Source: Gluconacetobacter azotocaptans (GTDB taxonomy: Bacteria > Pseudomonadota > Alphaproteobacteria > Acetobacterales > Acetobacteraceae). From it: a stretch of 64,000 nucleotides of DNA. The translations under genes were made by a program, and so were the position numbers. The DNA lies in NCBI RefSeq assembly GCF_014174355.1, contig NZ_JABEQF010000001.1, positions 62,001-126,000 on the forward strand. Direction: 5' to 3'. Shown here piece after piece: positions 9,086-33,491 of the stretch (the first letter of the stretch is position 1; each line of letters opens with the position of its first letter). The notes beneath the pieces were generated by a model. The model had not been told where the DNA came from, searched no databases, and saw nothing but the letters and a program-made list of their open reading frames with translations.

Positions 9086-9252
9086 CTGTCGGGTCCTTTC
9101 GGCGCGGGGCCATCGGTCGCGAATGATCCGGGGAGCAGGCCGTGGGCGCCCTGAAGCGCGCCATAGCGTCGGGCCGATGTCCCTTTCAATAAGCAACCGA
9201 CGGCGACTGGAGGCGTTCATCGCCCTATCCGAAAATTGTTGGAGGACACGGC

Positions 9253-17693: not shown

Positions 17694-18299
17694 TTATCGC
17701 CAGGCGTCGAGGACGAGATCGGCCGTGGCCGTTTCAACCTGCTGGCCATATCGCGTATGATAGACGTGCATCGACGCCTTGTAGGCGGCATCTGACGAGC
17801 TGCAAAGCGCATCGGTGACGACGACGGTTCGATAGCCGCGATCGACCGCGCCCAGAACGGTCGCGAGCACGCAGATATCGGTCTCGCCGCCGCTGATGAT
17901 GAGGGTGTCGATTCTGCGCGTTTGCAGCCGGGAGTGGAGGGCACCATCCATCCACGGCGAGTAGACATGTTTGTCGAACACCTCCGCCGGAGGCACGAAA
18001 CGCGCAAGATCGGGCATCAGCTCGATCATGTCCGCACCGAGCCTTTCGATCGTCATGGAGGCCCAGCGCTGGTAATAGCGGCGCCATGTTCCCCATCCCT
18101 CGCCGGGGTGCGCTGCGGGTATGAAACGGGTGAAAATGGTCCTGGCCGGGTCGTGCGCGACGATCCGTGCCGCCGTCGGACAGACGCGGTCCATCCAGGG
18201 CGTATGCCAATCGGTCTTTTCCGCGAACAGGCGTTGCATGTCGACGCAGACATGGACGCAATGTTCGCCAAGAGGACCATAGCGGACTGCGTTTGGCAT
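17694..18299 (-). CDS. Isochorismatase-like cysteine hydrolase
   Basis: A 201-residue cytoplasmic alpha/beta hydrolase of the isochorismatase/nicotinamidase family. The triad is visible as Asp in CVDMQRLF, Lys in FDKHVYSPW and Cys in ISGGETDICVLATVLGAVDR. ATG 18299 is preferred to the GTG directly before it, because the CGGAGGGG ribosome-binding site is then correctly spaced. The gene converges on paoC and stands alone. Family members hydrolyse amides or vinyl ethers (nicotinamide, N-carbamoyl compounds, isochorismate); the substrate here cannot be decided. Confidence 0.85.
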   Translation of the reverse strand: MPNAVRYGPLGEHCVHVCVDMQRLFAEKTDWHTPWMDRVCPTAARIVAHDPARTIFTRFIPAAHPGEGWGTWRRYYQRWASMTIERLGADMIELMPDLARFVPPAEVFDKHVYSPWMDGALHSRLQTRRIDTLIISGGETDICVLATVLGAVDRGYRTVVVTDALCSSSDAAYKASMHVYHTRYGQQVETATADLVLDAWR

Positions 18300-18607
18300 C
18301 ACCCCCTCCGGATTGCCTCAGCGCACGTCGTCGACTGACAACGAATGGCAGCAGGAAATGTTGCATCTGGTTGTTCTGATCCCAGGGTCAGGGGGCTGAT
18401 GTTCCAGGGCGCCTGCGACATTGCGTGACCGCGCCTGATCATCCCCGCCCGACAAGACATGGGGGCGTTTCCCAGCTTCACCACCGGTGTATCCGCTTTC
18501 GGAAAAAGAACAGGTTTGGTTTATTTTGAGAAAACATAAATAAAATGTGATTGTGAAATTATATCGTCAACATTTATGCAGAAACCGGCTTCGCTCTTCC
18601 AAATTTA
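18300..18607. other. Intergenic, AT-rich stretch
   Basis: No gene is supportable here. From about 18500 to 18610 the sequence becomes markedly AT-rich compared with its surroundings (runs such as AAACATAAATAAAATG), as expected for a promoter or a horizontally acquired scar. I see no clear hairpin or repeat. Confidence 0.4.
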
Positions 18608-19699: not shown

Positions 19700-21181
19700 G
19701 TGGCATTCGATGAACTGTCGGCGAATGAACCGCGACGAATCGAAATCGACGGCAAGCCTCTTGTCGTGTTGAAGGAAGGCGGCCGGATCCACGCATTGTC
19801 GGCGAAATGTCCCCATAAGGGGGCGCCGCTGGAGAAAGGCGCGGTGTGCGACGGCACGCTGGTCTGCCCTTGGCACAAAGCGATCTTTTCGGTGGTCGAC
19901 GGGCGATTGATGGAGCCACCGGCACTTGATCCGTTGGAGTCCTTTCCGGTGGAGGTGCGCGACGGGCGCGTCCTGATCCAATACCGCCCGAAAGCGATCG
20001 GCCCGACGTCCAGCGAAGTGCGACGGATGCCGTCGGAAGCGGAATCGGTGGTGATTGTCGGTGCCGGCGCGGCAGGGACCACGACGGCCGTATCCTTGCG
20101 TGAATTCGGGTTCGGAGGGCCGATCGCCCTCATCGATCCCGAGAAACGGGCGCCTTACGATCGCACGGCCCTCAGCAAGACGGTCCTGGCCGGGAAGAGC
20201 GAGGGAAACGCGCCACCTGCACTACTGCCGGCCGACAGGATGTCGGAAGATCGTATCACGCGGATTACCGAGCGGGTGGTCGCGCTGGATCCGGAAACCC
20301 GCAGCGTGACGCTGTCGGATAGTCGGGTGGTCATGGGCAGGCACCTGGTATTGGCGCCGGGTGCCCACCCGGTCCGGCTGCCTGTGGAGGGTGCCGGCCT
20401 GAAAGGCGTGCACAGCCTGCGCACGGCCGACGACGCGCAGCATATTCTGGAAGGCGTTTCCCCAGACGGTCATGCCGTCATTGTGGGAGGAAGCTTCATC
20501 GCCATGGAGGCGGCAGCCGCATTGCGCCAGCGCGGCACGCGTGTGAGCGTCGTTTCACGCGATAAAGTCCCCTTCTGCACCGCCTTCGGCACCAGGGTAG
20601 GGGAGAGCCTTCTGCGGCTTCATCTGGACCATGGGGTGGCCTGGCATGGCGGACGTGAGGTCGCCAGAATCGAACAACAGGCTGGGGCGCTGGCGGTCAG
20701 CCTGGACGATGGCCGGAAGTTGGACGCGGATATTGTGCTGATCGGTGTCGGTGTGCGGCCCGCGACGGGGTTTGTCCCCGCACTGACCGAGGAGGATGGT
20801 GGAATTGACGTTGACGCCGCCTTGCAGGCCAAGCCGGGCATTTACGTTGCGGGCGACTGCGCCCGGCTGGAGCACGCCGGCCGCCGAAGCCGGATCGAGC
20901 ACTGGCGCACGGCCGAGGTCCTTGGACGCCGGGTGGCCCGTACCATCATGGGACAACCGATATCCGCGGCGACGGTTCCCTGGTTCTGGACCCAGCAGTT
21001 CGGAAAAAAGATAGAATATGCGGGGTTTCATCAACCCTTCGACCATATCGTGGTCGATGGCGATGTGGATGCGTTCGATTTCACCGCACGGCATTACCGC
21101 GACAACCGATACGTCGGAATTGTCAGCGCGGGACGCCCCGGTGTGACCGCACACGTCGTTGGGACCGGGCAACTGACCTGA
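19700..21181 (+). CDS. Rieske-domain FAD-dependent reductase (AIF/ferredoxin-reductase-like)
   Basis: A 493-residue protein. An N-terminal Rieske 2Fe-2S domain has CPHKGAPL and CPWHKAIFSVVDGRL (the CxH and CxxH ligand pairs, about residues 37-60). A pyridine-nucleotide disulphide oxidoreductase core follows, with two dinucleotide motifs (VVIVGAGAAGTTTA and AVIVGGSFIAMEAAAAL), GIYVAGDCAR for FAD binding and a C-terminal reductase domain. It resembles rubredoxin/ferredoxin reductases and AIF-like proteins and probably shuttles electrons from NAD(P)H. The start is uncertain: GTG 19700 is the only start in frame after a stop at 19667, yet the in-frame WHDI just upstream looks like part of the family's N-terminus. 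It stands alone and converges on an MFS gene. Confidence 0.85.
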   Translation: MAFDELSANEPRRIEIDGKPLVVLKEGGRIHALSAKCPHKGAPLEKGAVCDGTLVCPWHKAIFSVVDGRLMEPPALDPLESFPVEVRDGRVLIQYRPKAIGPTSSEVRRMPSEAESVVIVGAGAAGTTTAVSLREFGFGGPIALIDPEKRAPYDRTALSKTVLAGKSEGNAPPALLPADRMSEDRITRITERVVALDPETRSVTLSDSRVVMGRHLVLAPGAHPVRLPVEGAGLKGVHSLRTADDAQHILEGVSPDGHAVIVGGSFIAMEAAAALRQRGTRVSVVSRDKVPFCTAFGTRVGESLLRLHLDHGVAWHGGREVARIEQQAGALAVSLDDGRKLDADIVLIGVGVRPATGFVPALTEEDGGIDVDAALQAKPGIYVAGDCARLEHAGRRSRIEHWRTAEVLGRRVARTIMGQPISAATVPWFWTQQFGKKIEYAGFHQPFDHIVVDGDVDAFDFTARHYRDNRYVGIVSAGRPGVTAHVVGTGQLT

Positions 21182-21295: not shown

Positions 21296-22600
21296 CTAAG
21301 CTTCATCCTGCGTGTGCATGGTAATCGATCGGCGCACCGTGATGATCGACAGCAGGCCAGCGACAATCAGCGCTGCACTGCACATATACCATGCGGCGTC
21401 GAAGCGTCCCGTGTAGGACACGATATAGCCGGTCACGATCGGGGCAAGAAGCCCGAGCGAATTGCTGAAGGTCAAGGTGACGCCGGTTACTGCGCCGATC
21501 TTCCGTCCATCTTCGACAAGGTCGGTCAGCAGCGCGGTATTGGCGCCATTTGCTGCAATCAGGCAGCACAGCGAGATCGAAAGAACCAGGAGAATGGGCG
21601 CCATGGTATGAAAATGCGGCAGCAACCCGATCGACGCGGCCCCGGTGAGGCAAGCTGCGACAATGAACCGTCGACGCGGGGGATGAAGGCTGTTCCGAAA
21701 CACGATCTGTTCGGAAATCCGCCCCAGTATCACCGCGCCGACCGCGGCGGACAAATAGCAAAGTGCGGTGTTGGTTCCCGACCCGGTGACGTCAATATGC
21801 AGCTCGTGAATCAGATAGAGCGGCATCCATGACATGACCAGGAAGTTGAGGTAATTTTGCGTGCATTGCACGACGAGGATTCCGCAGAACGAGGGCGATC
21901 TGAAGAGGGCCCGCACCTCGCGGATCGATATGGGGGTTCTTCTGTGCCGGTGTGCCCCCTCGGTGGGGTTGCGGTAAATCAGCCACCATGCCGCGGCCCA
22001 GATCAGCCCTATAAGTCCGAGCGCGATAAACTCGAAGCGCCATCCGAACAACGCAATCAGATAGGCGCCGGCGATCGTGCCGCCTGCTAGGCCCAATTGC
22101 ATACCGGTCAGAAGGACGGTCATGACCGAACCGCGTTCTTTCGGAAGCGCCCAGTTTCTGACGACGGTCGCGCCGACGCCGAATGTGGGTGCTTCTCCGA
22201 CACCCAGCAGCACGCGGGTCATCAGGAACTGGGAGATATTCTGAACCATGCCGCCCAGCAGCATCGCGCATGACCACAGGGCGACGGCGACACTGCCGAC
22301 GATACGGGCGCCCACGATGTCGAGCACGATCGTCGATGGCAGATTCAGCAGAAAATAGGACCACAGAAAGCTTGAGGACACCCAGCCCATCTCGACCGGG
22401 GTCAGTGTGAATTCCTTTCCCAGGGCGGGCAGGGCGATCGAAAGCGCCGCGCGATCGCCGTAGCTGATGACGTACATCAGAAACACGAGCAGGAAGAATA
22501 CATAGCGGGACGGGATTTTTCGGTGTGCCAGAGCGCCCATGGCCGACTCTTCCGATGCGATGCCGTATGGCCCCTCGGGGTTGGTCCGTTCACCAGACAT
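21296..22600 (-). CDS. MFS transporter, anion:cation symporter (ACS) type
   Basis: A 434-residue twelve-segment carrier. The N-terminal YVFFLLVFLMYVISYGDRAALSIALPAL and the following GWVSSSFLWSYFLLNLPST match the ACS family, whose members take up organic anions such as glucarate, galactonate, tartrate or phthalate. The GVGEAPTFGVGATVVRNWAL loop is also family-typical. The start ATG 22600 (AAGGGAACG upstream) lies 2 bases after the stop of the EamA-family gene on the same strand, so the two are co-transcribed, possibly as the distal part of the pxp operon. Uptake of 5-oxoproline or a related acid is a reasonable but unproven guess. Confidence 0.85.
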   Translation of the reverse strand: MSGERTNPEGPYGIASEESAMGALAHRKIPSRYVFFLLVFLMYVISYGDRAALSIALPALGKEFTLTPVEMGWVSSSFLWSYFLLNLPSTIVLDIVGARIVGSVAVALWSCAMLLGGMVQNISQFLMTRVLLGVGEAPTFGVGATVVRNWALPKERGSVMTVLLTGMQLGLAGGTIAGAYLIALFGWRFEFIALGLIGLIWAAAWWLIYRNPTEGAHRHRRTPISIREVRALFRSPSFCGILVVQCTQNYLNFLVMSWMPLYLIHELHIDVTGSGTNTALCYLSAAVGAVILGRISEQIVFRNSLHPPRRRFIVAACLTGAASIGLLPHFHTMAPILLVLSISLCCLIAANGANTALLTDLVEDGRKIGAVTGVTLTFSNSLGLLAPIVTGYIVSYTGRFDAAWYMCSAALIVAGLLSIITVRRSITMHTQDEA

Positions 22601-22602
22601 GG

Positions 22603-23526
22603 CTACGTTCCCTTGACGTTGGTGGGGGCCATCATTCCGCCGGTCGCTACCGGTCGTTTTTCCGGTCGGTCATGACGCAGCATCCACACGCCCGAGCCGA
22701 CGATCAGCAGTCCGCCGGTCAGCATCGCAATGCCGGGGATCTCGCCAAAGCCGAACCAGCCGATGACCGAGGCCCAAAGCAGGCCCGAATAGGCAAAGGG
22801 GCCGATGGCGGACACCTGCGCCGAGGCGAAGGCTTCGGTTTGCAGGACCTGCGCGATGCCGGCGAAAGCGCCGACTGCGACCAGGCACAGGCCGTCGGTC
22901 ATATGTGGCGTGGTCCAGATGAACGGCAGGGGAAGGGCCGTGGCGACGGTCATCAGGATGGCTTGCCACAGGGCGATGGTCGTACTCGACTCCGTCGCCG
23001 AAAGCTGTCGGATCTGCATGGTGGTCAACGCACCGACCGCGCCTTGTGCAAGTGCTACGACATAGGCCCAGTTGGGGACGGAATCCGGCCCCGAATGCAG
23101 AAGCCCCTTTCCCAACGCAACGACGATGACCCCGGAGAAGCCGATCGAAACCGCGACCCAGCGATGAAGCGACGGTCTTTCGTGGAGCAGGGGGATCGAC
23201 AGCAGAACGAGGAAGAGCGGCTGCGTGTAGGAGAGCACCTGCTGTTCCGCGAGGGGCAGCCTGGTGACGGTGACCACAATCATGATCATGCTGATCAGGC
23301 CGACGACCGAGCGGATCAGGTGACCGCCGAAATGGTGCGTTTTCAGCGTCATCTTCGTGCGCGCGGCGATCATCATGACGAATGGCAGAGAAAACAGATT
23401 CCGAAAGAAGATGATCTCGAGAGCCGGAAGCTGGGAGCCCGTCAATTTCTGGAGGGCATTCAGCATGGCCGTAAATAATGTGGCCGACGCCAACAGCAGC
23501 GCTCCGCGTTTCAGGTCGTGCTTCAT
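22603..23526 (-). CDS. EamA/DMT-family transporter
   Basis: A 307-residue protein with ten hydrophobic segments in two repeated EamA halves (ALLLASATLFTAMLNALQKL; NWAYVVALAQGAVGALTTMQ; IGPFAYSGLLWASVIGWFGF). The start ATG 23526 is preferred over an upstream GTG because GGGGTG is suitably placed. DMT transporters export or import amino acids, purines and other small metabolites. It lies 172 bases downstream of pxpA and 2 bases upstream of the MFS gene on the same strand. Confidence 0.85.
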   Translation of the reverse strand: MKHDLKRGALLLASATLFTAMLNALQKLTGSQLPALEIIFFRNLFSLPFVMMIAARTKMTLKTHHFGGHLIRSVVGLISMIMIVVTVTRLPLAEQQVLSYTQPLFLVLLSIPLLHERPSLHRWVAVSIGFSGVIVVALGKGLLHSGPDSVPNWAYVVALAQGAVGALTTMQIRQLSATESSTTIALWQAILMTVATALPLPFIWTTPHMTDGLCLVAVGAFAGIAQVLQTEAFASAQVSAIGPFAYSGLLWASVIGWFGFGEIPGIAMLTGGLLIVGSGVWMLRHDRPEKRPVATGGMMAPTNVKGT

Positions 23527-23698
23527 AGCGATGTTCACCCCAAAGCACGACACAGACGCGTGTGCACCTCATAACGGACCGGTCGGGGCCCTGTGGCATC
23601 TTGCCGCCGGACCGTCACGATAATGTAATGCTCCAGATTCCGTTTGTGGTCATAAAAGTTTGCTTCGCCCCGATAGGGAATTCTTATGCCTGTGGGCA

Positions 23699-24466
23699 TC
23701 AGTCCATGAGTCGGTGGGCGGGCGTCAGTTCTGCACCGGTCGCTTCGATTTCAGAGCGAATGGCGCGGGCAAGATCCAGTGATCCCGGCGTGTCGCTATG
23801 CACCAGGATCGAACGCGCCTTCACCGGCAGGCGGGATCCGTCGATTGTCATGACAGATCCGTCCTCCAGAAACCGGCGCACGCGCGCGCGGACGTCGGCC
23901 AGGTCATGAATGACGGCGCCCGGTTGCCCGCGGGGCACCAATGTTCCGGCGGCCGTATAGGCGCGATCGGCCAGAAAGAGGGTCAGCACACGCAGGCCGG
24001 CCTTTTCGGCCGCGCGTTCCGTAAGCTGGCCGGGCATCGAAAACACGGTCAGCTCGCGGTCCAGCGCGGCGATGGTTCGGGCCAGTCGCAGGGCAAGCCC
24101 TTCGTCCGCATTGGCCATGGTGCCGAAGGCGGCGTGATAGCTGACATGCGTCACGCGGTGTCCGTGCCGCGCCGCGACCGCCTGCAGGGCGCCGACCTGA
24201 TAGGCCAGCATGGCCTCCATGTCGGCGTCGGATACCGCCATCGTCCTGCGTCCGAAACCGATGAGATCGGGCAGGCCGGGGTGCGCGCCGATGCCCACCC
24301 CTCTTTCCTTCGCGGCCCGAACGGTGCGGTCCATGATGGCGTAATCGCCGGCATGGAATCCGCATGCGACATTGGCCGAGGAGACGACGCTCATCAGTCC
24401 GTCATCGTCGGCGATGCTCCAGCGGCCGAAGCCTTCGCCCATGTCGGAATTGAGATCGATTTTCAT
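23699..24466 (-). CDS. pxpA: LamB/YcsF family protein, 5-oxoprolinase subunit A
   Basis: A 255-residue member of the LamB/YcsF family with the signature motifs LNSDMGEGFG (residues 4-13), SANVACGFHAGD (about 30-41) and GAHPGLPDLIGFGRR (about 61-75), which line a metal/substrate site. In bacteria PxpA works with PxpB and PxpC as an ATP-dependent 5-oxoprolinase, opening pyroglutamate to glutamate. The start ATG 24466 overlaps the pxpC stop. It is the third gene of the pxpB-pxpC-pxpA operon. Length and order are normal for the family. Confidence 0.9.
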   Translation of the reverse strand: MKIDLNSDMGEGFGRWSIADDDGLMSVVSSANVACGFHAGDYAIMDRTVRAAKERGVGIGAHPGLPDLIGFGRRTMAVSDADMEAMLAYQVGALQAVAARHGHRVTHVSYHAAFGTMANADEGLALRLARTIAALDRELTVFSMPGQLTERAAEKAGLRVLTLFLADRAYTAAGTLVPRGQPGAVIHDLADVRARVRRFLEDGSVMTIDGSRLPVKARSILVHSDTPGSLDLARAIRSEIEATGAELTPAHRLMD

Positions 24467-25470
24467 GCCTGGGTTCCGGACGTAAGGGGAGCGCGCCGTT
24501 GGACGGACCCGCGGTAAAGGGCGACCATCATGCGCAGGTCATCGAGGTAGGATGCGATCGGCTGCATGGCGGCGACCCCTTGGGAATGGTCGCATTGCGC
24601 GAAGCGTATCCGCGTGCCGATGCGCGCCTGGGCGAGGCGCCAGAGATCGGCCTCGATGACACCGGCGATCCGGGGGTAGCCGCCGGCGGTATTGGCGTCG
24701 GCCATCTGCACGATGGGCTCGCCGGCGGGAGGCACCTGGACGATGCCCGGGACAATGCCATACGAGCGCAGTTCGATCGGGCGCTGTAACGCCAAGGGGT
24801 CGCCCTTGAGGCGATATCCCACGCGATCGCTCTGCGGGGTGATGCGCCATTCCGTCTGCCAGAACCGGTCGCGCGCCGCGCCGGTAAAGAGGTGATAGTC
24901 CGTGGCGGGAATGGCGCGCAGCGTCACGACGTTGCCTTCCCCGCGATCGCAGGGGCGGCTGAGGGCCGCGGCGGGAGGCAGCGCCCCATATCCCGACGAC
25001 GCGGGGCCGCCGGCGATTTTCAGGGCATCGTCCACCTCAAGCGGTCTGCCCGACAGGCCGCCGAATCCGCCGCGCAGCTGGGTGCTGCGCGAGCCGAGCA
25101 CCAAGGGTACGTCCAACCCACCCGCGACGCATACATACGCGCGGGCGCCACGGCGCGGGGGACCTACCGTGAGAACCTGCCCAGCCGCCGCATGTTCGAC
25201 GGACCAGGGCAGGACAGGATGTCCGTCGAGTTCCACAGCGGCGTCGACGCCCGTGACGGCGAAGCTGCCGGCGGCTTCGAATCGAATGACGAACGGATAG
25301 GTCTGGATCTCGATGCCCGCATCACCCGGCTGGTTACCCAGAAGAATATTGCCGACCTGAAGAGCCAGGGGATCCATGGCGCCTGAGGTTCCGACGCCGA
25401 GCTGGCGATAGCCGGATCGTCCCAGATCCTGCACCGTATTCAGCGCCGAGGTTTCGAGGACGGTAATCAC
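24463..25470 (-). CDS. pxpC: Biotin-dependent carboxyltransferase-like protein, 5-oxoprolinase subunit C (KipA/AHS2)
   Basis: A 335-residue AHS2-domain protein. Motifs are MITVLETSALNTVQDLGRSG at the N-terminus, GAMDPLALQVGNILLGN, YVCVAGGLDVPLVLGSRSTQ and the C-terminal GYPRIAGVIEADLWRLAQ. This domain is homologous to half of the carboxyltransferase of urea carboxylase, and in B. subtilis it is PxpC (KipA). The start overlaps the pxpB stop, and the gene's own stop overlaps the pxpA start. The divergent operon encodes a biotin carboxylase and BCCP, which gives this CT-like domain possible functional partners beyond plain oxoprolinase activity. Confidence 0.9.
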   Translation of the reverse strand: MITVLETSALNTVQDLGRSGYRQLGVGTSGAMDPLALQVGNILLGNQPGDAGIEIQTYPFVIRFEAAGSFAVTGVDAAVELDGHPVLPWSVEHAAAGQVLTVGPPRRGARAYVCVAGGLDVPLVLGSRSTQLRGGFGGLSGRPLEVDDALKIAGGPASSGYGALPPAAALSRPCDRGEGNVVTLRAIPATDYHLFTGAARDRFWQTEWRITPQSDRVGYRLKGDPLALQRPIELRSYGIVPGIVQVPPAGEPIVQMADANTAGGYPRIAGVIEADLWRLAQARIGTRIRFAQCDHSQGVAAMQPIASYLDDLRMMVALYRGSVQRRAPLTSGTQA

Positions 25471-26150
25471 AGTTCGATACTTTCGGGATGGAAGCGGATA
25501 CGGTCCCCGATCGAAAACAGCGCGGGCGGGTCCCTGTGCGGGTCGAACAGGGCGACTTCGGCAAAGCCGATGGAATTCCAGCCGTTTGGTCCCGTCAGGG
25601 CGGAAATTCCGGCCTGCATGCCGCCGATCGTCACCGTGCCGGCCAGCATTTTCAGCGAGGGAACCGCCTTTCGGGGCGTGGCGATGCGCGGATCAAGGCC
25701 GTGCAGATATCCGAACCCGGGCGCGCTTCCCAGCGCGCAGACCGTATATTCGCCGGCATGGTGGATGGAAATGACGTCCGACGGCGAGAGGCCGGTATGG
25801 GCGGCGACATGGGCAAGGTCTTCGCCCAATGCCCCGCCATAGCGCACGCCGACCTCGAAGAGGCGCCCCTTGATATGCCGTTCGGGCAATGTCTCCCACG
25901 CGTGCCGAAGCCAGTCGGCCACCTTCCGGGGCTGCTCGGGCGGAACGGAAAAGACCAGCATCAGGTTCGTTACGCCGGGGATCAGTTCCTGGACGTCGCT
26001 GCGGCCGCCGGCTTCCTCCATCAACGCCCAGATCTGGCGTTGCTGGGCGAGTGTGAATTCGCCCGGCGCCTCGAACAGCATCGCCCGCGTCCCGATCATG
26101 CTGACGACCGGCAGGTCGCTCGCCGCGTGGGTCACGGCCTCGGCCAGCAT
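25467..26150 (-). CDS. pxpB: 5-oxoprolinase subunit B (KipI/AHS1)
   Basis: A 227-residue AHS1-domain protein with a conserved C-terminal block: HHAGEYTVCALGSAPGFGYL, DPRIATPRKAVPSLKMLAGT and TIGGMQAGISALTGPNGW. Family members have 210-240 residues, which supports the start at ATG 26150 (CCGGAGACC upstream) rather than codons further upstream. It is the first gene of the pxpBCA operon. AHS1 and AHS2 together form a carboxyltransferase-like module. Beginning 388 bases from the divergent SDR-accBC operon, it probably shares control elements with it. Confidence 0.9.
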   Translation of the reverse strand: MLAEAVTHAASDLPVVSMIGTRAMLFEAPGEFTLAQQRQIWALMEEAGGRSDVQELIPGVTNLMLVFSVPPEQPRKVADWLRHAWETLPERHIKGRLFEVGVRYGGALGEDLAHVAAHTGLSPSDVISIHHAGEYTVCALGSAPGFGYLHGLDPRIATPRKAVPSLKMLAGTVTIGGMQAGISALTGPNGWNSIGFAEVALFDPHRDPPALFSIGDRIRFHPESIEL

Positions 26151-26259
26151 GTCGGTCTCCGGACCCGGAGTGTGCGTCGTATCCCTGTTCACCTTACGCC
26201 GTCTCCAGCACAATGTTCGCTCACGCCACGAAGGTGTGAAAGGCCTGGATCTGAGACCG

Positions 26260-26274
26260 ATATCGCAACGATAT
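26260..26274. promoter_or_regulatory. ATA-N9-TAT site, candidate Nac-like LysR operator
   Basis: The sequence is ATA, nine bases (TCGCAACGA), then TAT. This is the core published for Nac-type LysR regulators. It lies about 110 bases upstream of the pxpB start. Binding is inferred, not shown. Confidence 0.4.
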
Positions 26275-26352
26275 ATGCCCAGATTCTCCAATTCGATGAT
26301 CGAAAATATGACAGTTCACGGCGCGCTCGCCAGAGCCATTTTCGCTGTGAGG

Positions 26353-26409
26353 CTATCGGATAATCTTATGGGTCAATCTGGTAACCGCTTCTATCGCATT
26401 ATCTTATGG
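26353..26409. repeat. Tandem 19-bp direct repeat, 38-bp period
   Basis: CTATCGGATAATCTTATGG (26353-26371) is repeated as CTATCGCATTATCTTATGG (26391-26409), two mismatches in 19, with a start-to-start distance of 38 bp. Both copies sit between the two divergent operons and look like a duplicated operator. CTTATGG also occurs upstream of aspC at 30855-30861. Confidence 0.6.
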
Positions 26410-26538
26410 CGCAAGAACGAACTGCTCTTGGCGCTGCGATTGTTACGATACTAGCATCAAGCGGATAATTTCCGGTCGACGCACGATGACCTGCGCCGAG
26501 CGGCGACTTTATTTCTTGCAGGATCGGGATTCAAGCAG

Positions 26539-27294
26539 ATGAGCAACCAGCCGTATCGTACCGCTCTCGTCACCGGAGCGTCCTCTGGAATCGGTGCGGC
26601 GATCGTCGGGCGCTTGCGGGAAGCCGGGATCGAGGTTCACGCCGTCGCCCGCGACAAGGACCGGCTGGCACGGTTGGCCGACGAGACCGGTTGTATTCCC
26701 CATGCGCTGAGCGTGTCCGATCGTGACGGCATGGCAGACCTGCTCAGCACGCTCGACGTCGATATTCTGGTCAATAACGCGGGGCAGTCCCGCACGGGCA
26801 ATATCACCAACACGACCCCGGATGACATTGATGCCCTGGTCGATGTGAATCTGCGCGCTGTCCTGCAGCTGACCCATCTGGTCGTCCCGGGCATGATCCG
26901 GCGCGATCGCGGCCATATCGTCAACATCAGCTCGATCGCCGGTCATTACGCGTTCGCCGGGGGAAACACGATCTACCATGCGACGAAGGCAGGGGTGCAT
27001 TCGCTTTCCCAACAGTTGCGCTGCGATCTTTATGGGTCGCACGTGCGGGTGACCGAAATTTCGCCGGCGCGCGTGGAGACCGAAGTATTCGGTCGATTGA
27101 TCGGCGACATGGAAGAAGCGAAGCGCAGGTTTTTCGACGAGTACGAATCTCTTCTGCCGGTGGACATTGCCAATTCGGTTGCCTTTGCGGTGCTGGCGCC
27201 GCAGCGCATGAACGTCAGCTTTATGGAAGTGCTGCCGACGATGCAGGTGGTCGGTGGTCTGAACTTCGCGAAGAAATCAGCTGATCCGGCGTGA
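26539..27294 (+). CDS. SDR-family oxidoreductase
   Basis: A 251-residue classical SDR: TGASSGIGAAIVGRL at the N-terminus, NNAGQSRTG, the catalytic Ser in NISSIAGHY and Tyr-Lys in YHATKAGVH. It probably binds NADP(H) (Arg in VARDKDRLARL after the second strand). It opens the operon SDR-BCCP-biotin carboxylase-BCCP-like and is joined to the BCCP gene by a GTGA overlap, so it is likely part of the same pathway. Its substrate may be the aldehyde, ketone or alcohol counterpart of what the pxp/biotin enzymes process (inference). Confidence 0.88.
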   Translation: MSNQPYRTALVTGASSGIGAAIVGRLREAGIEVHAVARDKDRLARLADETGCIPHALSVSDRDGMADLLSTLDVDILVNNAGQSRTGNITNTTPDDIDALVDVNLRAVLQLTHLVVPGMIRRDRGHIVNISSIAGHYAFAGGNTIYHATKAGVHSLSQQLRCDLYGSHVRVTEISPARVETEVFGRLIGDMEEAKRRFFDEYESLLPVDIANSVAFAVLAPQRMNVSFMEVLPTMQVVGGLNFAKKSADPA

Positions 27295-27734
27295 CGCCAG
27301 TGGATATCCTGCGCCTTAAACGCCTGATCGATCTGTTCGCGCATGCTCCAATCAACGAACTGGAGGTGGAGGACGGCGGTCAACTGATCCGGATAAGCCG
27401 TGGAAACACGGCCGGTCCGGCGCCGGTCGTCGTGCCGCGACCGCCTGATGGCCCGGCAGCGACGATCGTCCCGGAGCGGCCTGCCGCGCCGGTGGAAGAC
27501 GTTCGCGTTATTACGGCCCCCACCTATGGCGTTCTTCATCTTTCACCGTCACCGGGGACGCCGCCCTATGTGACGATGGGGCAGGACATAGAGGCTGGGC
27601 AACAGGTGGGGCTTGTCGAGGCAATGAAGGTGTTCAACGCGGTCAAGGCGACGCTGTCGGGTCGGATCGTGGAGATCCTGGTTCAGGATGGCGCGGAAGT
27701 GGAGGCAGGTTCGCCCCTGTTTCGTCTGAAATGA
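27291..27734 (+). CDS. accB: Biotin carboxyl carrier protein
   Basis: A 147-residue AccB-type protein. It has an N-terminal helix, a Pro/Ala-rich flexible linker (about residues 43-70) and a C-terminal biotinyl domain with EAMKV, the biotin-accepting lysine being about residue 113, flanked by TAPTYGVLHL and VQDGAEVEAGSPLF. It starts with GTG 27291 overlapping the SDR stop. It pairs with the biotin carboxylase encoded immediately downstream. Because it is in a pxp-linked cluster rather than with accA/accD, it may serve a dedicated carboxylase instead of acetyl-CoA carboxylase. Confidence 0.9.
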   Translation: MTPVDILRLKRLIDLFAHAPINELEVEDGGQLIRISRGNTAGPAPVVVPRPPDGPAATIVPERPAAPVEDVRVITAPTYGVLHLSPSPGTPPYVTMGQDIEAGQQVGLVEAMKVFNAVKATLSGRIVEILVQDGAEVEAGSPLFRLK

Positions 27735-29098
27735 GCGACACACAACGTTTCGACCGGGTCCTGATCGCCAATCGGGGCGAAATAGCCCTACGTATCCAGC
27801 GTGCGTGCCGGCGGCTTGGACTGGAAACGGTCGCCGTTCACTCCGAGGCCGATGCCGAGAGCCGTCATGTGCGCGAAGCGGATGTCGCCTTATGCATCGG
27901 GCCCGCGGCTGCGGCCCGAAGCTATTTGGACACCGATGCGCTGTTGCTGGCCGCCAGGGTCACCGGGGCGTCGGCCATTCATCCCGGATATGGATTTCTC
28001 TCGGAAAATGCCGATTTCGCGGACGCCGTCGAAGCTGCGGGCCTGACGTTCATCGGCCCGACCGGCGCGTCCATTCGCCAGATGGGTGACAAGATCACGG
28101 CCAAGCGCGCCATGCGGGACGCGGGCGTGCCCTGTGTGCCCGGCTCTGACGGACCGTTGCCCGCTTCGATGGACGAGGTTCAGGTCCTGGCCGAGACGGT
28201 TGGCTTTCCGGTGATCGTGAAGGCATCGGGCGGCGGCGGTGGCCGGGGCATGCGTGTCGTGTGGGACGCCGCCGATCTGGCCGAGGCCGTGACGCTGACG
28301 GCGAAAGAGGCCCAGCAGGCCTTCGGCAACCCCACCCTGTACCTCGAGCGCTTCATGCAGAAGCCGCGTCATATCGAGATCCAGGTGCTCTGCGATACCC
28401 ATGGGACGGCCTTGTGGCTGGGTGCACGCGACTGTTCGCTTCAGAGACGCCACCAGAAAGTGCTGGAAGAAGCGCCCGCGCCGGGAATTTCCCCCGCCGT
28501 TATTGCCGAGATCGGCGCCCGTTGTGCCGAGGCGTGCCGCAAGATCGGATATCGCGGGGCCGGGACCTTCGAATTCCTGTATGAGGACGGTATTTTCGCC
28601 TTCATCGAGATGAATACCCGCGTGCAGGTGGAACACCCGATTACCGAAGCGACGACCGGTATCGACATCGTCTGCGAGCAGTTGAAAATCGCGCAAGGCG
28701 AGGCGCTGGCAATCGGGCAGGAAGACGTCGTCACGTACGGTCATGCGATCGAGTGCCGTATCAACGCCGAGGACCCGTTTTCGTTCATGCCGTCACCGGG
28801 TACGATCTCGCGCTGGGACCTGCCGGGCGGTCCGGGAATCAGGGTCGATACGCATGTTGTCGGCGGTTATACGGTCCAGCCCTATTACGACTCGCTGATC
28901 GGCAAGGTCATCGGCCACGGCGCCTCGCGGGAGGAAGCCATCGCGCGTCTGCGCGTCGCGCTGGCGGAAATGCGCGTGGAGGGGGTTTTCACCAATCTGC
29001 GGTTGCATCAGGACGTGCTGGCGGACCCTCGCTTTCAGGAGGGAGGCGTCGATATTCATTATCTCGAGCGGTGGCTTGCGGAGAGGGCGGCGTCGTGA
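27731..29098 (+). CDS. accC: Biotin carboxylase (AccC type)
   Basis: A 455-residue ATP-grasp biotin carboxylase, normal length for AccC. Motifs in order: LIANRGEIALRIQRACRRLG (N-terminal), HPGYGFLSENADFA, the ATP-binding GGGGRGMR, ERFMQKPRHIEIQV, RDCSLQRRHQKVLEEAP and EMNTRVQVEHPITEATTG with the catalytic Arg/Glu residues, then the C-terminal VEGVFTNLRLHQDVL. It carboxylates the biotin on BCCP using ATP and bicarbonate. The start overlaps the BCCP stop, and a BCCP-like gene overlaps its own stop. Confidence 0.92.
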   Translation: MSDTQRFDRVLIANRGEIALRIQRACRRLGLETVAVHSEADAESRHVREADVALCIGPAAAARSYLDTDALLLAARVTGASAIHPGYGFLSENADFADAVEAAGLTFIGPTGASIRQMGDKITAKRAMRDAGVPCVPGSDGPLPASMDEVQVLAETVGFPVIVKASGGGGGRGMRVVWDAADLAEAVTLTAKEAQQAFGNPTLYLERFMQKPRHIEIQVLCDTHGTALWLGARDCSLQRRHQKVLEEAPAPGISPAVIAEIGARCAEACRKIGYRGAGTFEFLYEDGIFAFIEMNTRVQVEHPITEATTGIDIVCEQLKIAQGEALAIGQEDVVTYGHAIECRINAEDPFSFMPSPGTISRWDLPGGPGIRVDTHVVGGYTVQPYYDSLIGKVIGHGASREEAIARLRVALAEMRVEGVFTNLRLHQDVLADPRFQEGGVDIHYLERWLAERAAS

Positions 29099-29550
29099 CC
29101 GGACCATCGAAATTGATCCCCGATCTGGATACGCTGCCGGAAATAGAGGAAATCGGCCAGATCGCGACCTGGCTGGCCGAAGCGGGGCTGGAGTCCATGG
29201 AGCTTTCAAGCTGCATGGGCGGTCGGCTGCGGATCTTGGTGGCGCAAACGCCCCTGCCGGTGGGGCAGGACGTGATCGCCCCGTCTGTGCCGCAACCTGC
29301 GGTGGCCGAGCCGGTGGCCGCGAAGGCGCCGTTCTTCGGCCGTCTGTGTCTGGTGAATCCGCTCGGCGAGGAAGCGTTTGCTCCTGTCGGATCGACTGTC
29401 CGGAAGGGCGATATCGTCGCTCTTCTGACTCTCGAAACTCTTCAGGTTCCTGTCACGGCGCCGATCGACGGCGAGGTGGTGGAAATCGTCGGACGAGCGG
29501 ACGATCTTGTCGGATACGGCGCGGAAATATTGAGAATCAGGCCCCTTTAG
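29095..29550 (+). CDS. Degenerate BCCP-like protein lacking the biotin lysine
   Basis: A 151-residue protein starting at GTG 29095, overlapping the accC stop by the GTGA rule. It has the architecture of a BCCP: N-terminal helical part, Pro/Ala linker (about residues 60-78) and a biotinyl-like beta domain (LVNPLGEEAFAPVGSTVRKG, then PVTAPIDGEVVEIVGRADDL). At the place of EAMKV it reads ETLQV, so the biotin-accepting Lys is replaced by Gln (about residue 117). It cannot carry biotin and is probably a structural or regulatory partner. The operon terminator follows directly. Confidence 0.8.
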   Translation: MTGPSKLIPDLDTLPEIEEIGQIATWLAEAGLESMELSSCMGGRLRILVAQTPLPVGQDVIAPSVPQPAVAEPVAAKAPFFGRLCLVNPLGEEAFAPVGSTVRKGDIVALLTLETLQVPVTAPIDGEVVEIVGRADDLVGYGAEILRIRPL

Positions 29551-29576
29551 CCGGGGAACTGCTCTCGTGGGGCGCA

Positions 29577-29614
29577 GCCGGGGGGAAGCACATGTCTTCC
29601 CCCGGCCTTTTTTT
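29577..29614 (+). terminator. Rho-independent terminator of the SDR-accBC operon
   Basis: A strong GC hairpin: left arm GCCGGGGGGAAG (29577-29588), 7-base loop, right arm CTTCCCCCGGC (29596-29606) with one bulged G, followed by seven T at 29608-29614. It lies just beyond the BCCP-like stop and insulates it from the convergent aspC. Confidence 0.85.
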
Positions 29615-29617
29615 GTC

Positions 29618-30820
29618 TTACGTCAACGAAGACACGAATTCGGCAATACGCCGGCAGCCCTCGCGCAGCGTGTCCGTGTCCGTCGCATAGGAAATGCGGA
29701 AGAAGGGGCTCATCCCGTAAGCCGCGCCCTGCACGGTCGCGACCTGCTGCTCTTCCAGAAGCGCCATGACGAAGTCGGTGTCGGTCTCGATCCGGCGGCC
29801 GCCTTTGGTGGTCTTCCCCAGGCAGGCGCCGATTTCGGGATAGACGTAGAACGCGCCCTGCGGCGTGTGGCATCGCAGGCCGGGGATGGCGTTCAGAAGG
29901 CCGACGACGAGGTCCCGCCGCGCCTGATATTCACGCGCCCGATCCTTGAGATAGTCTTGCGGGCCTTCAAGTGCGGCAATGGCGGCGGCCTGGGCGATCG
30001 TGTTGATGCCGCTGGTGGCCTGACCCTGCATGTTGTTCATGGCGGCGATCAGGTCCCTCGGGCCGCCACAAAATCCGACGCGCCATCCGGTCATGGCATA
30101 GGCTTTGGAGACGCCGTTGACCGTCAGGACCCGATCTTTCAGGCGCGGCTCGATTTCCGCCAGCGTGCGGAATTCAAACTCATCGTATATAAGGTGTTCG
30201 TAGATATCGTCCGTCAGGATCCACACATGCGGATGTTTCATCATGACGGCCGCGATGTCTTCCAGATCCTGTCGGGGGCAGCAGGCGCCCGTCGGATTGT
30301 TGGGGAAATTCAGCACCAGCCACTTGGTCTTCGGCGTGATCGCCGCCTCCAGGTCGCTCGCTGACAGGCGGAAATCATTGCCGGCAGGGCAGGGGACCTG
30401 CACGATCCGGGCGCCCCCCAACCGGGCGATGTCGGCATAGCTGATCCAGTAAGGCGTCGGCAGCACCACTTCGTCACCCGGATTGCAGGTGGCCATCATG
30501 GCATTGTAGATGATCTGCTTCGCGCCGTTCGCGATCAGGATTTCATCCAGCTCGTAACGAAGGTTGTTGTCCCTCAGGAACTTGTTCTGGACGGCCTTCT
30601 TCAGGGCCGGCTTGCCGTCCTGCGGCGGGTATTTTGTGTCCCCACCGCGGGCGGCCACGATGGCGGCCTCGACAACGTGGCCGGGTGTCGGGAAGTCGGG
30701 TTCCCCCGACGACAGGCTGACGATCTTCACGCCTTGGGCCTTGAGCGCAGACGCCTTGTCTGTCATGGCTGCGGAAGCAGAGATCGCAATCCCATTCAGT
30801 CGGTCTGCAAAGCCAGGCAT
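29618..30820 (-). CDS. aspC: Class I pyridoxal-phosphate aminotransferase (aspartate aminotransferase-like)
   Basis: A 400-residue fold-type I aminotransferase of the alphaproteobacterial aspartate aminotransferase group. Seen are LSSGEPDFPTPGHVVEAA, the Tyr-stacking YPPQDG region, the family NFPNNPTGACCPRQ, ILTDDIYEHL (Asp contacting the pyridine N), VSKAYAMTGWRVGF with the PLP lysine at about residue 239, and C-terminal FRISYATDTDTLREGC with the carboxylate-binding Arg. It interconverts aspartate/oxaloacetate with glutamate/2-oxoglutarate, linking glutamate (from 5-oxoproline) to aspartate. It is divergent from aspA. Confidence 0.88.
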   Translation of the reverse strand: MPGFADRLNGIAISASAAMTDKASALKAQGVKIVSLSSGEPDFPTPGHVVEAAIVAARGGDTKYPPQDGKPALKKAVQNKFLRDNNLRYELDEILIANGAKQIIYNAMMATCNPGDEVVLPTPYWISYADIARLGGARIVQVPCPAGNDFRLSASDLEAAITPKTKWLVLNFPNNPTGACCPRQDLEDIAAVMMKHPHVWILTDDIYEHLIYDEFEFRTLAEIEPRLKDRVLTVNGVSKAYAMTGWRVGFCGGPRDLIAAMNNMQGQATSGINTIAQAAAIAALEGPQDYLKDRAREYQARRDLVVGLLNAIPGLRCHTPQGAFYVYPEIGACLGKTTKGGRRIETDTDFVMALLEEQQVATVQGAAYGMSPFFRISYATDTDTLREGCRRIAEFVSSLT

Positions 30821-31035: not shown

Positions 31036-32547
31036 ATGGCCGACACGATGCGGGATAGTGAAGTCAGCGATTGCCTGTCCTCCGGCCCCGTCGGAGGGGC
31101 GGCGGACGGACAGGCCGGTCGGCCAGGCTATCGGGTCGAGCAGGACCTGCTGGGGAAACTCGAGATTCCCGCCGATGCCCTTTGGGGTGTGCATACCCAG
31201 CGGGCCATCGAAAATTTTCGGATCAGCGGCACGCCCATCGGTGCGTTTGAAGAGCTTGTTCGGGCGCTGGTGATCGTCAAACAGGCGGCCGCACGGGCCA
31301 ATTGCGCTCTGGGATATCTGGACGTTGAGCGTGCAACGGCAATTGGCGCGGCGTGTACTGAAATATTGAACGACGGACGCTACCGCGACCACTTCGTCGT
31401 GGATGCCATGCAGGGTGGGGCGGGAACGTCCACCAACATGAATACGAACGAGGTCATCGCGAACGTCGCGCTCGAGATGTCCGGCAGATGCCGGGGCGAC
31501 TATGCCGCCCTGCATCCCAACGACCACGTCAACATGGCGCAGTCGACTAACGATGCCTACCCGACGGCCCTCAGGCTGGCGGCGCTTCTTGCCATCGACC
31601 CCCTGGTCGCTGCGCTGACCGGTCTGGCGGCGGGTCTTGGCGTGAAGGCGGTGGAGTTCGCATCGATCCTCAAGGTCGGCCGTACCCAGTTGCGTGACGC
31701 TGTGCCGATGACACTGGGCCAGGAATTTGGGGCGTTCAAAAGCACGATCGAGGCGGAAATCCGCAGCCTGAAGGACCAGTCGGCCGTGTTTCTTCAGGTC
31801 AATCTCGGGGGGACGGCTGTTGGTACCGGCCTGAATACCGACCCGCGTTACAGGCGGGTGGTCACGGCCGAATTGGCGCAATTGACCGGGCGCCCGATCG
31901 TGCCTGCCGTCGACCTGATCGAGGCGACGTCGGATGTCGGGGCGTTCACACTGTTTTCCGGCGTGTTGAAGAGGCTGGCCCTCAAACTGTCCAAGATGGC
32001 GAGCGATCTGCGATTGCTGTCCAGCGGACCGCGTGCCGGATTGGGCGAGATCGTGCTGCCCGCGGTGCAGGCCGGATCTTCCATCATGCCGGGAAAGATC
32101 AACCCGGTCATACCCGAAGTGGTGAATCAGGTTGCCTACCTCGTCGCTGGGCATGATGTGACGATCACGATGTGCGCGGATGGCGGGCAGTTGCAGCTTA
32201 ACCCGTTCGAGCCGATGATCGGCTATTGTCTGCTTTCCTCGATAAAATTACTGACGTCTGCGGTCAATGCACTTCAGTCGAAATGTGTTGGGGGCATCGT
32301 GGCCGACACCGAAAGGTGCCGGTATTTATCTGAAAATAGTATCGGCGTGGTGACGGCGCTGGTGCCGGTGTTGGGCTACGATATGTGTTCGGCGATCGCC
32401 AAGCGCGCCCTTGCGGAGCACCGGAAGGTTATCGACCTGGTGCTGGAAGAAGATCTTTTGTCCAAGGAGCGGCTTATGGAGATCTTGCGTCCCGAGGCCC
32501 TGACCAGACCAAATCTGGGCGGTGTGCGGGATGAGCCGCCGGGCTAG
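31036..32547 (+). CDS. aspA: Aspartate ammonia-lyase
   Basis: A 503-residue member of the aspartase/fumarase II superfamily. Signature blocks: NMAQSTNDAYPTALRLAALL, VNLGGTAVGTGLNTDPRYR and the catalytic flexible loop GSSIMPGKINPVIPEVVNQV (Ser around residue 348). The MCADGGQLQLNPFEPMIGYC region favours aspartase over fumarase. It splits aspartate to fumarate and ammonia. The N-terminus has about 30 extra residues of low conservation before RVEQDLLGKLEIP. AGGA precedes ATG 31036. Its stop overlaps the convergent LysR gene by 4 bases. With AspC it forms a route from glutamate to fumarate plus ammonium. Confidence 0.9.
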   Translation: MADTMRDSEVSDCLSSGPVGGAADGQAGRPGYRVEQDLLGKLEIPADALWGVHTQRAIENFRISGTPIGAFEELVRALVIVKQAAARANCALGYLDVERATAIGAACTEILNDGRYRDHFVVDAMQGGAGTSTNMNTNEVIANVALEMSGRCRGDYAALHPNDHVNMAQSTNDAYPTALRLAALLAIDPLVAALTGLAAGLGVKAVEFASILKVGRTQLRDAVPMTLGQEFGAFKSTIEAEIRSLKDQSAVFLQVNLGGTAVGTGLNTDPRYRRVVTAELAQLTGRPIVPAVDLIEATSDVGAFTLFSGVLKRLALKLSKMASDLRLLSSGPRAGLGEIVLPAVQAGSSIMPGKINPVIPEVVNQVAYLVAGHDVTITMCADGGQLQLNPFEPMIGYCLLSSIKLLTSAVNALQSKCVGGIVADTERCRYLSENSIGVVTALVPVLGYDMCSAIAKRALAEHRKVIDLVLEEDLLSKERLMEILRPEALTRPNLGGVRDEPPG

Positions 32548-33491
32548 GATGCCTGCGTTCCCGGCCAGTTCCGCGAGGTTGCCATCGCCCGGGCCAGATC
32601 GATCAGCTGTTCGCGGACGGCGACCGAAGCCTCGGTTTCGGGGACCGTTTCGGGAATGCAGAGAGATACGTCTTCCTGGATAACCGGATTGCGCAAGGGA
32701 TAAATTCGGGATTTTTCAGGCACGACAATACGACTGGCGACCGACCATGGCAGAATTGTGCTGCCGATGCCTTCGGCTATCGATTCCTGCAACGTGAGAA
32801 GCGCTTCTATTTCCGCGATGATATTGGGCTTGAGCTGCTTGCGCAGAAAAGCCATGTCAATGCGGCTTCGGACGAAATTATGCTTGGGCGGAACCAGAAG
32901 AGGAATGTCGACGATATCCGCCAGTTGAACCGCGCCTGTCGAATCTTGCGGAAATTCCAGAGATATGGGGGAAAGAAGAAAGAAGTCCTCTTTCATCAAC
33001 GGTGTGAAGACGACACCCTTGATTGGACCGGAGCCATGAATGACGGCCATATCCAGGCGGCCGGTCATGATCAACTCGCTGTATATATCGTCGAAGCTTT
33101 CGGTCAAATGAAGAGTGATACCCGGAAGGCGCGACCGAACGCGCTGGAGGAGGTCGACGGCGAGTGTCGAGCCGGCACTGTATGGCGAAAGACCGACCGA
33201 CACCTTGCCCACCAGTGGCCCGACGCCGTTGCTGATCTCGACCATGGCCCTGTCGAGCTGCTTGATCAATGTTTGCGCGTGCCGATACAATTCCAGGCCG
33301 GCCGTCGTCGGGGTGACCCCGCTCTTGCTTCTGATGACGAGCTTCTGCTTGAAAGCACTTTCAAGTGCCGCCAATTGCTGACTGAGTGCGGGCTGGGCAA
33401 TATTGAGGAGATCAGCGGCGCGCGAGATGCTGCCAAGGTCTATTATTTTTACAAATGCCTGCAGCCGTCTTATGTCCAAGTGAAACTCCAT
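32544..33491 (-). CDS. LysR-family regulator, Nac-like
   Basis: A 315-residue LysR protein with the N-terminal winged helix (LQAFVKIIDLGSISRAADLL, NIAQPALSQQLAALE) and GVTPTTAGLELYRHA in the linker helix, closely resembling E. coli Nac in these blocks. The C-terminal periplasmic-binding-like domain follows (GKVSVGLSPYSAGS, GRLDMAVIHGSGPIKGVVFTP). Nac proteins respond to nitrogen status and bind ATA-N9-TAT. It is encoded tail-to-tail with aspA and divergent from a TonB receptor. Candidate sites occur in three local divergent regions, so it probably controls the pxp, asp and possibly levan genes. The 19-bp dyad at 33509-33527 just upstream may mediate autoregulation. Confidence 0.85.
   Translation of the reverse strand: MEFHLDIRRLQAFVKIIDLGSISRAADLLNIAQPALSQQLAALESAFKQKLVIRSKSGVTPTTAGLELYRHAQTLIKQLDRAMVEISNGVGPLVGKVSVGLSPYSAGSTLAVDLLQRVRSRLPGITLHLTESFDDIYSELIMTGRLDMAVIHGSGPIKGVVFTPLMKEDFFLLSPISLEFPQDSTGAVQLADIVDIPLLVPPKHNFVRSRIDMAFLRKQLKPNIIAEIEALLTLQESIAEGIGSTILPWSVASRIVVPEKSRIYPLRNPVIQEDVSLCIPETVPETEASVAVREQLIDLARAMATSRNWPGTQAS

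Follow-up and report, generated by a model that had tools for sequence, protein, structure and literature searches.

A pxpBCA operon facing a biotin carboxylase operon in Gluconacetobacter azotocaptans: candidate genes for a multi-subunit, biotin-dependent lactam carboxylase/hydrolase

The DNA considered here is a 64,000-nucleotide stretch of the Gluconacetobacter azotocaptans genome (assembly GCF_014174355.1, contig NZ_JABEQF010000001.1, positions 62,001 to 126,000; hereafter the window, numbered from its first letter), in which two operons diverge from a single control region (Table 1). On the minus strand lie pxpB, pxpC and pxpA, and on the plus strand the genes of a short-chain dehydrogenase/reductase (SDR), a biotin carboxyl carrier protein (BCCP), a biotin carboxylase (BC) and a second BCCP-like protein, here called psB. 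This arrangement, with the two gene sets facing each other across one shared control region, had been described in a first-pass annotation of the sequence and is confirmed by the open reading frames (ORFs) and their matches to family profiles. Neighbouring genes share 4-base overlaps at pxpB/pxpC, pxpC/pxpA, SDR/BCCP, BCCP/BC and BC/psB, the last of these depending on a psB start (29095) of our own choosing, and the junction between pxpA and the next gene, for an EamA-family transporter, has no overlap. The open frame of pxpB extends to 26291 (TTG), the start at 26150 having been picked by similarity. Past the EamA gene lies an MFS transporter gene, and past psB are genes for an aspartate-type aminotransferase (AAT), an aspartate ammonia-lyase and a NAC-like LysR regulator. 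In our reading of the sequence, which we favour on balance, the two operons would together encode one multi-subunit enzyme, a biotin-dependent, ATP-driven lactam carboxylase/hydrolase.

Table 1. Features of the pxp–biotin carboxylase locus, in window positions
Feature	Position	Strand	Family match or remark
MFS transporter, possible uptake	21296-22600	-	PF07690, E=8.9e-54; best NCBIfam match TIGR00893, 181.7 bits, under cut-off 395
EamA-family transporter	22603-23553	-	PF00892, E=5.6e-22
pxpA, LamB/YcsF family, proposed ring-opening hydrolase	23699-24466	-	NF003814, 328.7 bits, above cut-off 226
pxpC, carboxyltransferase subdomains A+B	24463-25470	-	TIGR00724, 288.5 bits, above cut-off 230.2
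pxpB, carboxyltransferase subdomains C+D	25467 to ~26150	-	TIGR00370, 172.9 bits, above cut-off 145.55 (frame from 26291)
Shared control region of both divergent operons	26151-26538		388 bases
Direct repeat copy 1, possible regulator site	26353-26376		24 nt
Direct repeat copy 2	26391-26414		24 nt
SDR oxidoreductase, YdfG-like	26539-27294	+	NF007829, 159.2 bits, under cut-off 411; stop overlaps BCCP start
BCCP with EAMK biotinyl motif	27291-27734	+	TIGR00531, 95.3 bits, under cut-off 115.2
Biotin carboxylase (BC), AccC type	27731-29098	+	TIGR00514, 647.4 bits, above cut-off 626.5
psB, BCCP paralogue without biotinyl lysine	29095-29550	+	PF00364, 29.9 bits (frame from 29086)
AAT, aspartate-type aminotransferase, conserved neighbour	29618-30820	-	NF004769, 505.5 bits, under cut-off 617
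Aspartate ammonia-lyase, neighbour in some Acetobacteraceae	31036-32547	+	NF008909, 681.2 bits, above cut-off 510
LysR regulator, NAC-like	32544-33491	-	NF008410, 296 bits, under cut-off 309

The functional tie between PxpABC and a dedicated BC and BCCP, as the first-pass annotation had supposed it, finds support in an accounting of carboxyltransferases (CTs) across the genome and in the way the pairing recurs, with BCs of different lineages, in three or more clades of PxpBC. In the first regard, PxpB and PxpC of the window carry between them the CT domains of urea carboxylase (Pfam). The genome, given as 100% complete in 57 contigs with the window on contig C1, contains two PxpB and two PxpC genes and three BC genes; one BC adjoins each of the two pxpBC pairs, and the third, on contig C3 beside a BCCP, is presumed to be the housekeeping copy and falls in the AccC group of the BC tree. 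The second pxpBC pair, on contig C6, stands in a single run of MFS-pxpB-pxpC-pxpA-BCCP-BC-psB, such that both loci have BCCP, BC and psB next to pxpABC. A CoA-type CT (Carboxyl_trans) was found at two places only, one on contig C4 and one on C3, whose ORFs read as AccA and AccD; being on different contigs from that of the window, they are neither linked nor dedicated to its BC and BCCP. No pyruvate-type CT was matched anywhere in the genome. Since AccA/AccD are the only CoA-type CT and the pyruvate type was not found, PxpBC is, as judged from the gene complement, the only recognised CT partner for the two extra BC-BCCP pairs. That the BC and BCCP serve a dedicated acyl-CoA or pyruvate CT was accordingly rejected, no such genes having been found in the genome.

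The linkage extends well beyond this genome, as was seen in two samples of different construction. The first comprised 80 named loci, the best 80 of 100 fetched by PxpC similarity alone, which are thus close PxpC relatives and not independent draws (the nearest to the window PxpC is from G. johannae, at 91% identity); a BC lies in the examined flank of 76 of them. Of the four without one, two carry the cluster at another place in their genome, as pxpA-psB-BC-BCCP on the same contig some 13 kb away (locus L065) or on another contig (L059). The second sample was of 299 Pseudomonadota genomes, drawn evenly and not chosen for linkage, of which 103 have PxpB, at 140 places. From these were kept the 99 non-fused places (open frames below 900 amino acids, outside the G. 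azotocaptans genome), with up to 20 kb around each; left out were that genome's own two and a further 39 with frames of at least 900 amino acids, 38 of them of at least 1,179 amino acids, the size of urea carboxylase, and one (in genome G241) a 937-amino-acid frame under the family cut-off. A BC lies within about 10 kb of 23 of the 99 places, where about 1.4 would be expected at the BC density of the G. azotocaptans genome (3 in 4.13 Mb), and 22 of these 23 are on the strand of pxpB; PxpA is found at 88 of the 99. Loci L199 and L113 were counted as linked, and L200 is type III-like (see below) without a BC in the stretch examined. Fused PxpBC proteins are BC-linked in 11 of 11 cases. The conserved pxpABC-BC linkage that the first-pass annotation had proposed to seek across genomes is real, with accA and accD off the locus in the genome at hand, and a chance neighbourhood was rejected on these frequencies and on the clustering of BC linkage in the PxpBC tree. 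Indeed, public annotation already shows pxpABC beside BC and BCCP, with one PxpC there named 'biotin-dependent carboxyltransferase family protein'; a full-text literature search, beyond which subscription papers lay, gave among the matches listed no title or abstract opening describing pxpABC with a biotin carboxylase. Several Bradyrhizobium loci (L043, 9309-16493, and others; L214) hold two pxpBC pairs and a single BC-BCCP set in the stretch examined.

Relationships were assessed with a tree of 119 joined PxpB and PxpC rows and another of 63 BC domains, both quick searches without bootstrap, the former accompanied by warnings on long branches and letter make-up. From the PxpBC tree L073 was removed, its PxpB/PxpC pairing being unsure; L065 was labelled as unlinked despite its BC some 13 kb away, and the Mycobacterium smegmatis row was labelled as linked solely from PDB entry 9YX5. 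The clade of the window, termed type I, has 20 rows (support 100), 18 of them labelled BC-linked, and sits in a larger group that also takes in the Escherichia coli YbgJ clade. Type II is a clade of 13 rows in which pxpBC is usually fused and BC usually fused to BCCP, and which includes the mycobacterial chains of 9YX5. Type III combines pxpA-BCCP-BC with a urea-carboxylase-like CT and lies nearer the urea carboxylases, six rows together and L193 apart. L113 is a linked place standing alone beside an unlinked row. Over the whole PxpBC tree the BC label changes six times, against a shuffled mean of 34, and none of 500 shuffles gave so low a number. Linkage is thus seen in no fewer than three PxpBC clades, and the BCs of the three large ones come from separate lineages. 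In the BC tree types I and II form one starred clade each, that of type I (98, starred) being nested in a 29-row AccC-type group (95, starred) together with presumed housekeeping AccC rows and L113, and the type III BCs form one starred clade with a partial Rhizobium BC that adjoins a second PxpA and a small BCCP. The matching clades of the two trees indicate that CT and BC travel together, with different BC lineages paired with PxpBC. Identities of BC and PxpC also co-vary (Mantel r 0.86, 0 of 999 permutations, 58 rows, Bradyrhizobium and a few other rows having been left out), which shared descent alone could produce.

The biotin proteins keep their key residues. The window BCCP has the EAMK motif, and the biotinyl lysine is present in 80 of 81 aligned BCCP rows, the remaining one being truncated (the 81 include three rows outside type I, namely the housekeeping copy of the G. 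azotocaptans genome, present twice, and one from the second Rhizobium cluster). Of ten positions which we take to be catalytic from the E. coli AccC numbering, nine are invariant in all 78 aligned BC rows, among which the housekeeping copy figures as two; the tenth, H236, is Asn in 19 of the 78 and His in the window BC.

A psB-like ORF is present in 78 of the 80 named loci and in both loci of the G. azotocaptans genome, 81 ORFs in all (a second example of the kind found in that genome is at L008, 6441-6881), and in L059 and L065, whose loci lack it, it occurs elsewhere in the genome. Because lack of E[AV]MK was the criterion that set psB off from BCCP, the missing motif holds by construction, and the real finding is that the extra ORF is present each time. 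In a joint alignment Lys occupies the biotinyl column in 0 of 81 psB rows and in 79 of 79 BCCP rows; one psB is gapped at that column and L084 has a Lys one residue earlier. The predicted psB model (pLDDT 88) matches biotinyl domains, with E. coli 1BDO as best Foldseek match, and public annotation calls the protein 'biotin/lipoyl-containing protein'. It was found at five of the 99 sampled PxpB places, all five of type I, and it persists in two clusters (L049 and L159) with neither BC nor BCCP in the stretch examined. Since it is kept in such clusters, psB probably serves the PxpABC side, as a structural or docking subunit. The gene encodes a conserved carrier-fold protein without the carrier lysine, which the scheme of the first-pass annotation does not explain.

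What the sequences show is the genes and their order, how far both are conserved, the state of the motifs and the tally across the genome; all catalytic steps, the complex and the substrate in the following scheme are inferred from these. BC, with ATP and bicarbonate, would carboxylate the biotin on BCCP, which would then dock on PxpB-PxpC, a CT of the urea carboxylase type; PxpBC would move the carboxyl group to the nitrogen (or oxygen) of a cyclic amide, PxpA would hydrolyse the activated ring, and the resulting carbamate would lose CO2 to leave an open-chain amino acid. ATP-driven carboxylation would thereby pay for an unfavourable ring opening; for 5-oxoproline, Keq is given as ~0.035 in PMC13274462. 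The role of ring-opening hydrolase is assumed for PxpA in the same text, and an alignment of 103 PxpA sequences drawn from all types has 27 columns with conservation of 95% or more and no column that passed the cut for a consistent difference between type I and unlinked forms. A hydrolase is therefore more likely than the mere substrate-binding partner that PxpA had first been taken for. How PxpABC couples ATP to lactam opening is likewise assumed rather than shown in the available text of PMC13274462, and a widespread, repeatedly evolved tie to BC offers a concrete mechanism, namely activation of the amide by carboxylation. If true, the biotin enzymes would gain a multi-subunit, urea-carboxylase-like class, and a role would be found for many genes beside pxpA named 'acetyl-CoA carboxylase subunit' or 'biotin/lipoyl-containing protein'.

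Several observations weigh against the scheme. The foremost concerns K1605 of Kluyveromyces lactis urea amidolyase, described in PMC5770610 as most likely the general base of the CT reaction, which in our alignment is the Lys of TKYNP. This column is Arg in the window PxpB, in 20 of 20 type I, 13 of 13 type II and 75 of 75 unlinked rows and in L113, or 109 of 119 rows in all; it is Lys only in the seven type III and three urea carboxylase rows. Since Arg replaces the general-base Lys here just as in all unlinked rows, the window PxpB has, by alignment, an oxoprolinase-type site, and its use of carboxybiotin, whatever form this takes, is not a copy of urea carboxylase chemistry. The first-pass view that these are the same parts as in urea carboxylase finds no support on this point, and a plain split urea carboxylase was rejected for the window locus on the Lys-to-Arg change; it fits type III better. 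Secondly, no BC is found near 76 of the 99 sampled PxpB places, and three type I loci keep PxpABC with no BC in the stretch examined. In one of these (Lonsdalea, L049) BCCP is missing from the stretch as well, and the two BCs of the genome are a presumed housekeeping and a type III copy, neither of the window type; in another (L159, genome G222), also without BCCP in the stretch, the three BCs of the genome are one of AccC type and two in frames of about 1,200 amino acids, the size of urea carboxylase; the third, on an A. vitis plasmid (L028), has retained BCCP and psB (8370-9291) with no BC in 21 kb, two of the seven BC matches of its genome having been inspected. Thirdly, phosphorylation of 5-oxoproline by PxpBC is assumed in the literature (PMC13274462), and the unlinked PxpABC systems of E. 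coli, Bacillus subtilis and Corynebacterium glutamicum are described as ATP-dependent oxoprolinases, with biotin not mentioned in the portions of those accounts to hand.

A structural hint bears on the scheme from both sides. In its favour, PDB entry 9YX5 lists mycobacterial relatives of PxpB and PxpC ('allophanate hydrolase subunits 1 and 2') together with AccA3, a BC-BCCP protein; against it, the entry also holds two beta chains of propionyl-CoA carboxylase, which by chain name are presumably AccD4 and AccD5. Because these two chains are present, the contact of the PxpBC-type proteins with AccA3 may be peripheral; the sister entries 9YX1 and 9YX2 are titled as a long chain acyl-CoA carboxylase complex of M. 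smegmatis. No match to a PxpA-type chain was found in 9YX5, whereas the window locus has PxpA, and it is 9YX5 that has acyl-CoA carboxyltransferases.

The most credible of the alternatives, which we nevertheless consider rather unlikely, is that PxpABC is an ordinary ATP-dependent oxoprolinase and that BC, BCCP and psB carry out a separate carboxylation in the same catabolic pathway through an unrecognised CT. The many PxpB places without a nearby BC imply that PxpABC can do without a dedicated one, Arg-type PxpB is alike in linked types I and II and in unlinked forms, and the BC operon of the window also contains an SDR, with AAT and other pathway genes close by. Against this, no CoA- or pyruvate-type CT was found in the genome besides AccA/AccD, the BC of types II and III, like that of the second locus of the G. 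azotocaptans genome, is close to pxpB/pxpC and shares their strand, and the pairing recurs with different BC lineages. A bolder possibility, to which we give still less credence, is that all PxpABC 'oxoprolinases' are driven by carboxybiotin, with Arg-type PxpBC accepting it from any BC and BCCP, including housekeeping AccB/AccC where none is dedicated. The BC-linked clades would then hold a private supply, to which type I adds psB for assembly, and the accepted phosphorylation of the lactam by PxpBC would be wrong.

It appears improbable that acetyl-CoA carboxylase is what the BC and BCCP belong to, as spare subunits kept for housekeeping AccA/AccD or for dosage and placed by pxp as a regulatory convenience. 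The nesting of the type I BCs in the AccC-type group and the score of the window BC above the AccC cut-off accord with such a role, but linkage in at least three clades with different BC lineages does not, nor do the psB that accompanies type I clusters and the many neighbours of catabolic appearance. Least probable is that the biotin genes are a functionless relic of an ancestral biotin-dependent CT that drifted into a biotin-free oxoprolinase. Although BC, alone or along with BCCP, is missing from the stretch examined at a few type I loci, the biotinyl lysine and nearly all of the assumed BC catalytic positions are intact across the sampled rows, the window genes overlap and the biotin genes are widely kept.

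The proposal that the two operons encode a single lactam-activating enzyme may also be set against known systems. The 5-oxoprolinase PxpABC (E. coli YbgJKL, B. subtilis KipI/KipA/YcsF, C. glutamicum PxpABC) has the same three families as the window, with common PxpA columns and Arg at the key PxpB position, and the predicted PxpC model of the window (pLDDT 87.4) has as its nearest solved folds YbgK (5DUD), which is the closest, 3MML and urea carboxylase (5I8I/3VA7). By contrast, the window adds a dedicated BC, BCCP and psB together with AAT and SDR, many relatives add an aldolase, and the window PxpC scores 292.1 bits against the NCBI equivalog model of 5-oxoprolinase PxpC (NF045499), short of its cut-off of 500. 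Urea carboxylase and urea amidolyase (3VA7, 5I8I) share the BC, BCCP, CT_A_B and CT_C_D parts, which in the window are in separate genes, and differ in the catalytic Lys. Scores against TIGR02712 (urea carboxylase; cut-off 1303.85) were 158.4 for PxpC and 491.4 for BC, and no allophanate hydrolase is among the genes identified from 21.3 to 33.5 kb of the window. Types II and III, like the window, have PxpA, a urea-type CT and BC/BCCP in one cluster, but have their own CT and BC clades and no psB match in either, and type III keeps the urea carboxylase Lys. With this Lys kept in the seven rows tested, type III is the better candidate for a true split amide carboxylase. Its clusters, in which BCCP-BC is usually joined by pxpA, were seen at L193, L195, L197, L198, L199 and L201, and also at L202, L208 and L021 (from 19463 on).

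The HyuAB-type ATP-dependent lactamases (caprolactamase and the eukaryotic-type oxoprolinase) open lactams at the expense of ATP, as is proposed here, and are without similarity to PxpABC according to PMC8453981. A HyuA/HyuB pair (hydantoinase/oxoprolinase family) and a MarR-type regulator adjoin the second pxp-BC locus of the G. azotocaptans genome (L008, 2119-5816), and the same genes stand beside loci of this second kind in a number of Gluconobacter, Gluconacetobacter and Acetobacter genomes, so that lactam-opening genes of two unrelated kinds are neighbours there. Fungal lamA/lamB are associated with 2-pyrrolidone use; among the papers listed by a literature search on them, none had a title of evident relevance.

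As to the substrate, neighbouring genes were counted by a targeted similarity search over the 80 named loci. AAT, an SDR match and a LysR relative (at least 38% identity) were each found in 67, an RraA-like gene in 49 and aspartate ammonia-lyase relatives in seven; The 11 loci of the second-locus kind (L078-L080, L083-L090) all lack AAT. In two plasmids the RraA-like gene bears the annotation 4-carboxy-4-hydroxy-2-oxoadipate aldolase/oxaloacetate decarboxylase. In loci of Acetobacter and Gluconacetobacter the MFS gene retains its place next to pxpA and EamA, the latter likewise conserved, and amino-acid or other ABC transporters lie nearby in related loci. Such neighbours hint that a polar cyclic amide is taken up and that the product is an amino-dicarboxylate. 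An acidic lactam is the probable substrate; its opening would give an aspartate- or glutamate-like acid, on which AAT, SDR, aspartase or the RraA-like aldolase/oxaloacetate decarboxylase would then act. 5-Oxoproline is a possible substrate, but since it would not need extra enzymes, the additional AAT, SDR and aldolase/oxaloacetate decarboxylase genes argue for another cyclic amide.

The control region contains two direct repeats of 24 nt, which are set 38 bases apart and are 83% alike. The core that they share, WTWATCTTATG, has just two occurrences in the whole window, both in the repeats, against an expectation of 0.03, and is visible in the aligned control regions of seven related Acetobacteraceae, the second copy being imperfect in L020. 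LysR proteins may bind such repeats, and our guess is that the NAC-like LysR (32544-33491) is the candidate regulator. Further out, beyond the MFS gene, are a ferredoxin-reductase-like gene (19700-21181), an ORF at 17694-18302 without an NCBIfam match at E 1e-20, and a gene for a PaoC molybdopterin aldehyde oxidoreductase (15218-17575; 1331 bits, above the NCBIfam cut-off of 1180).

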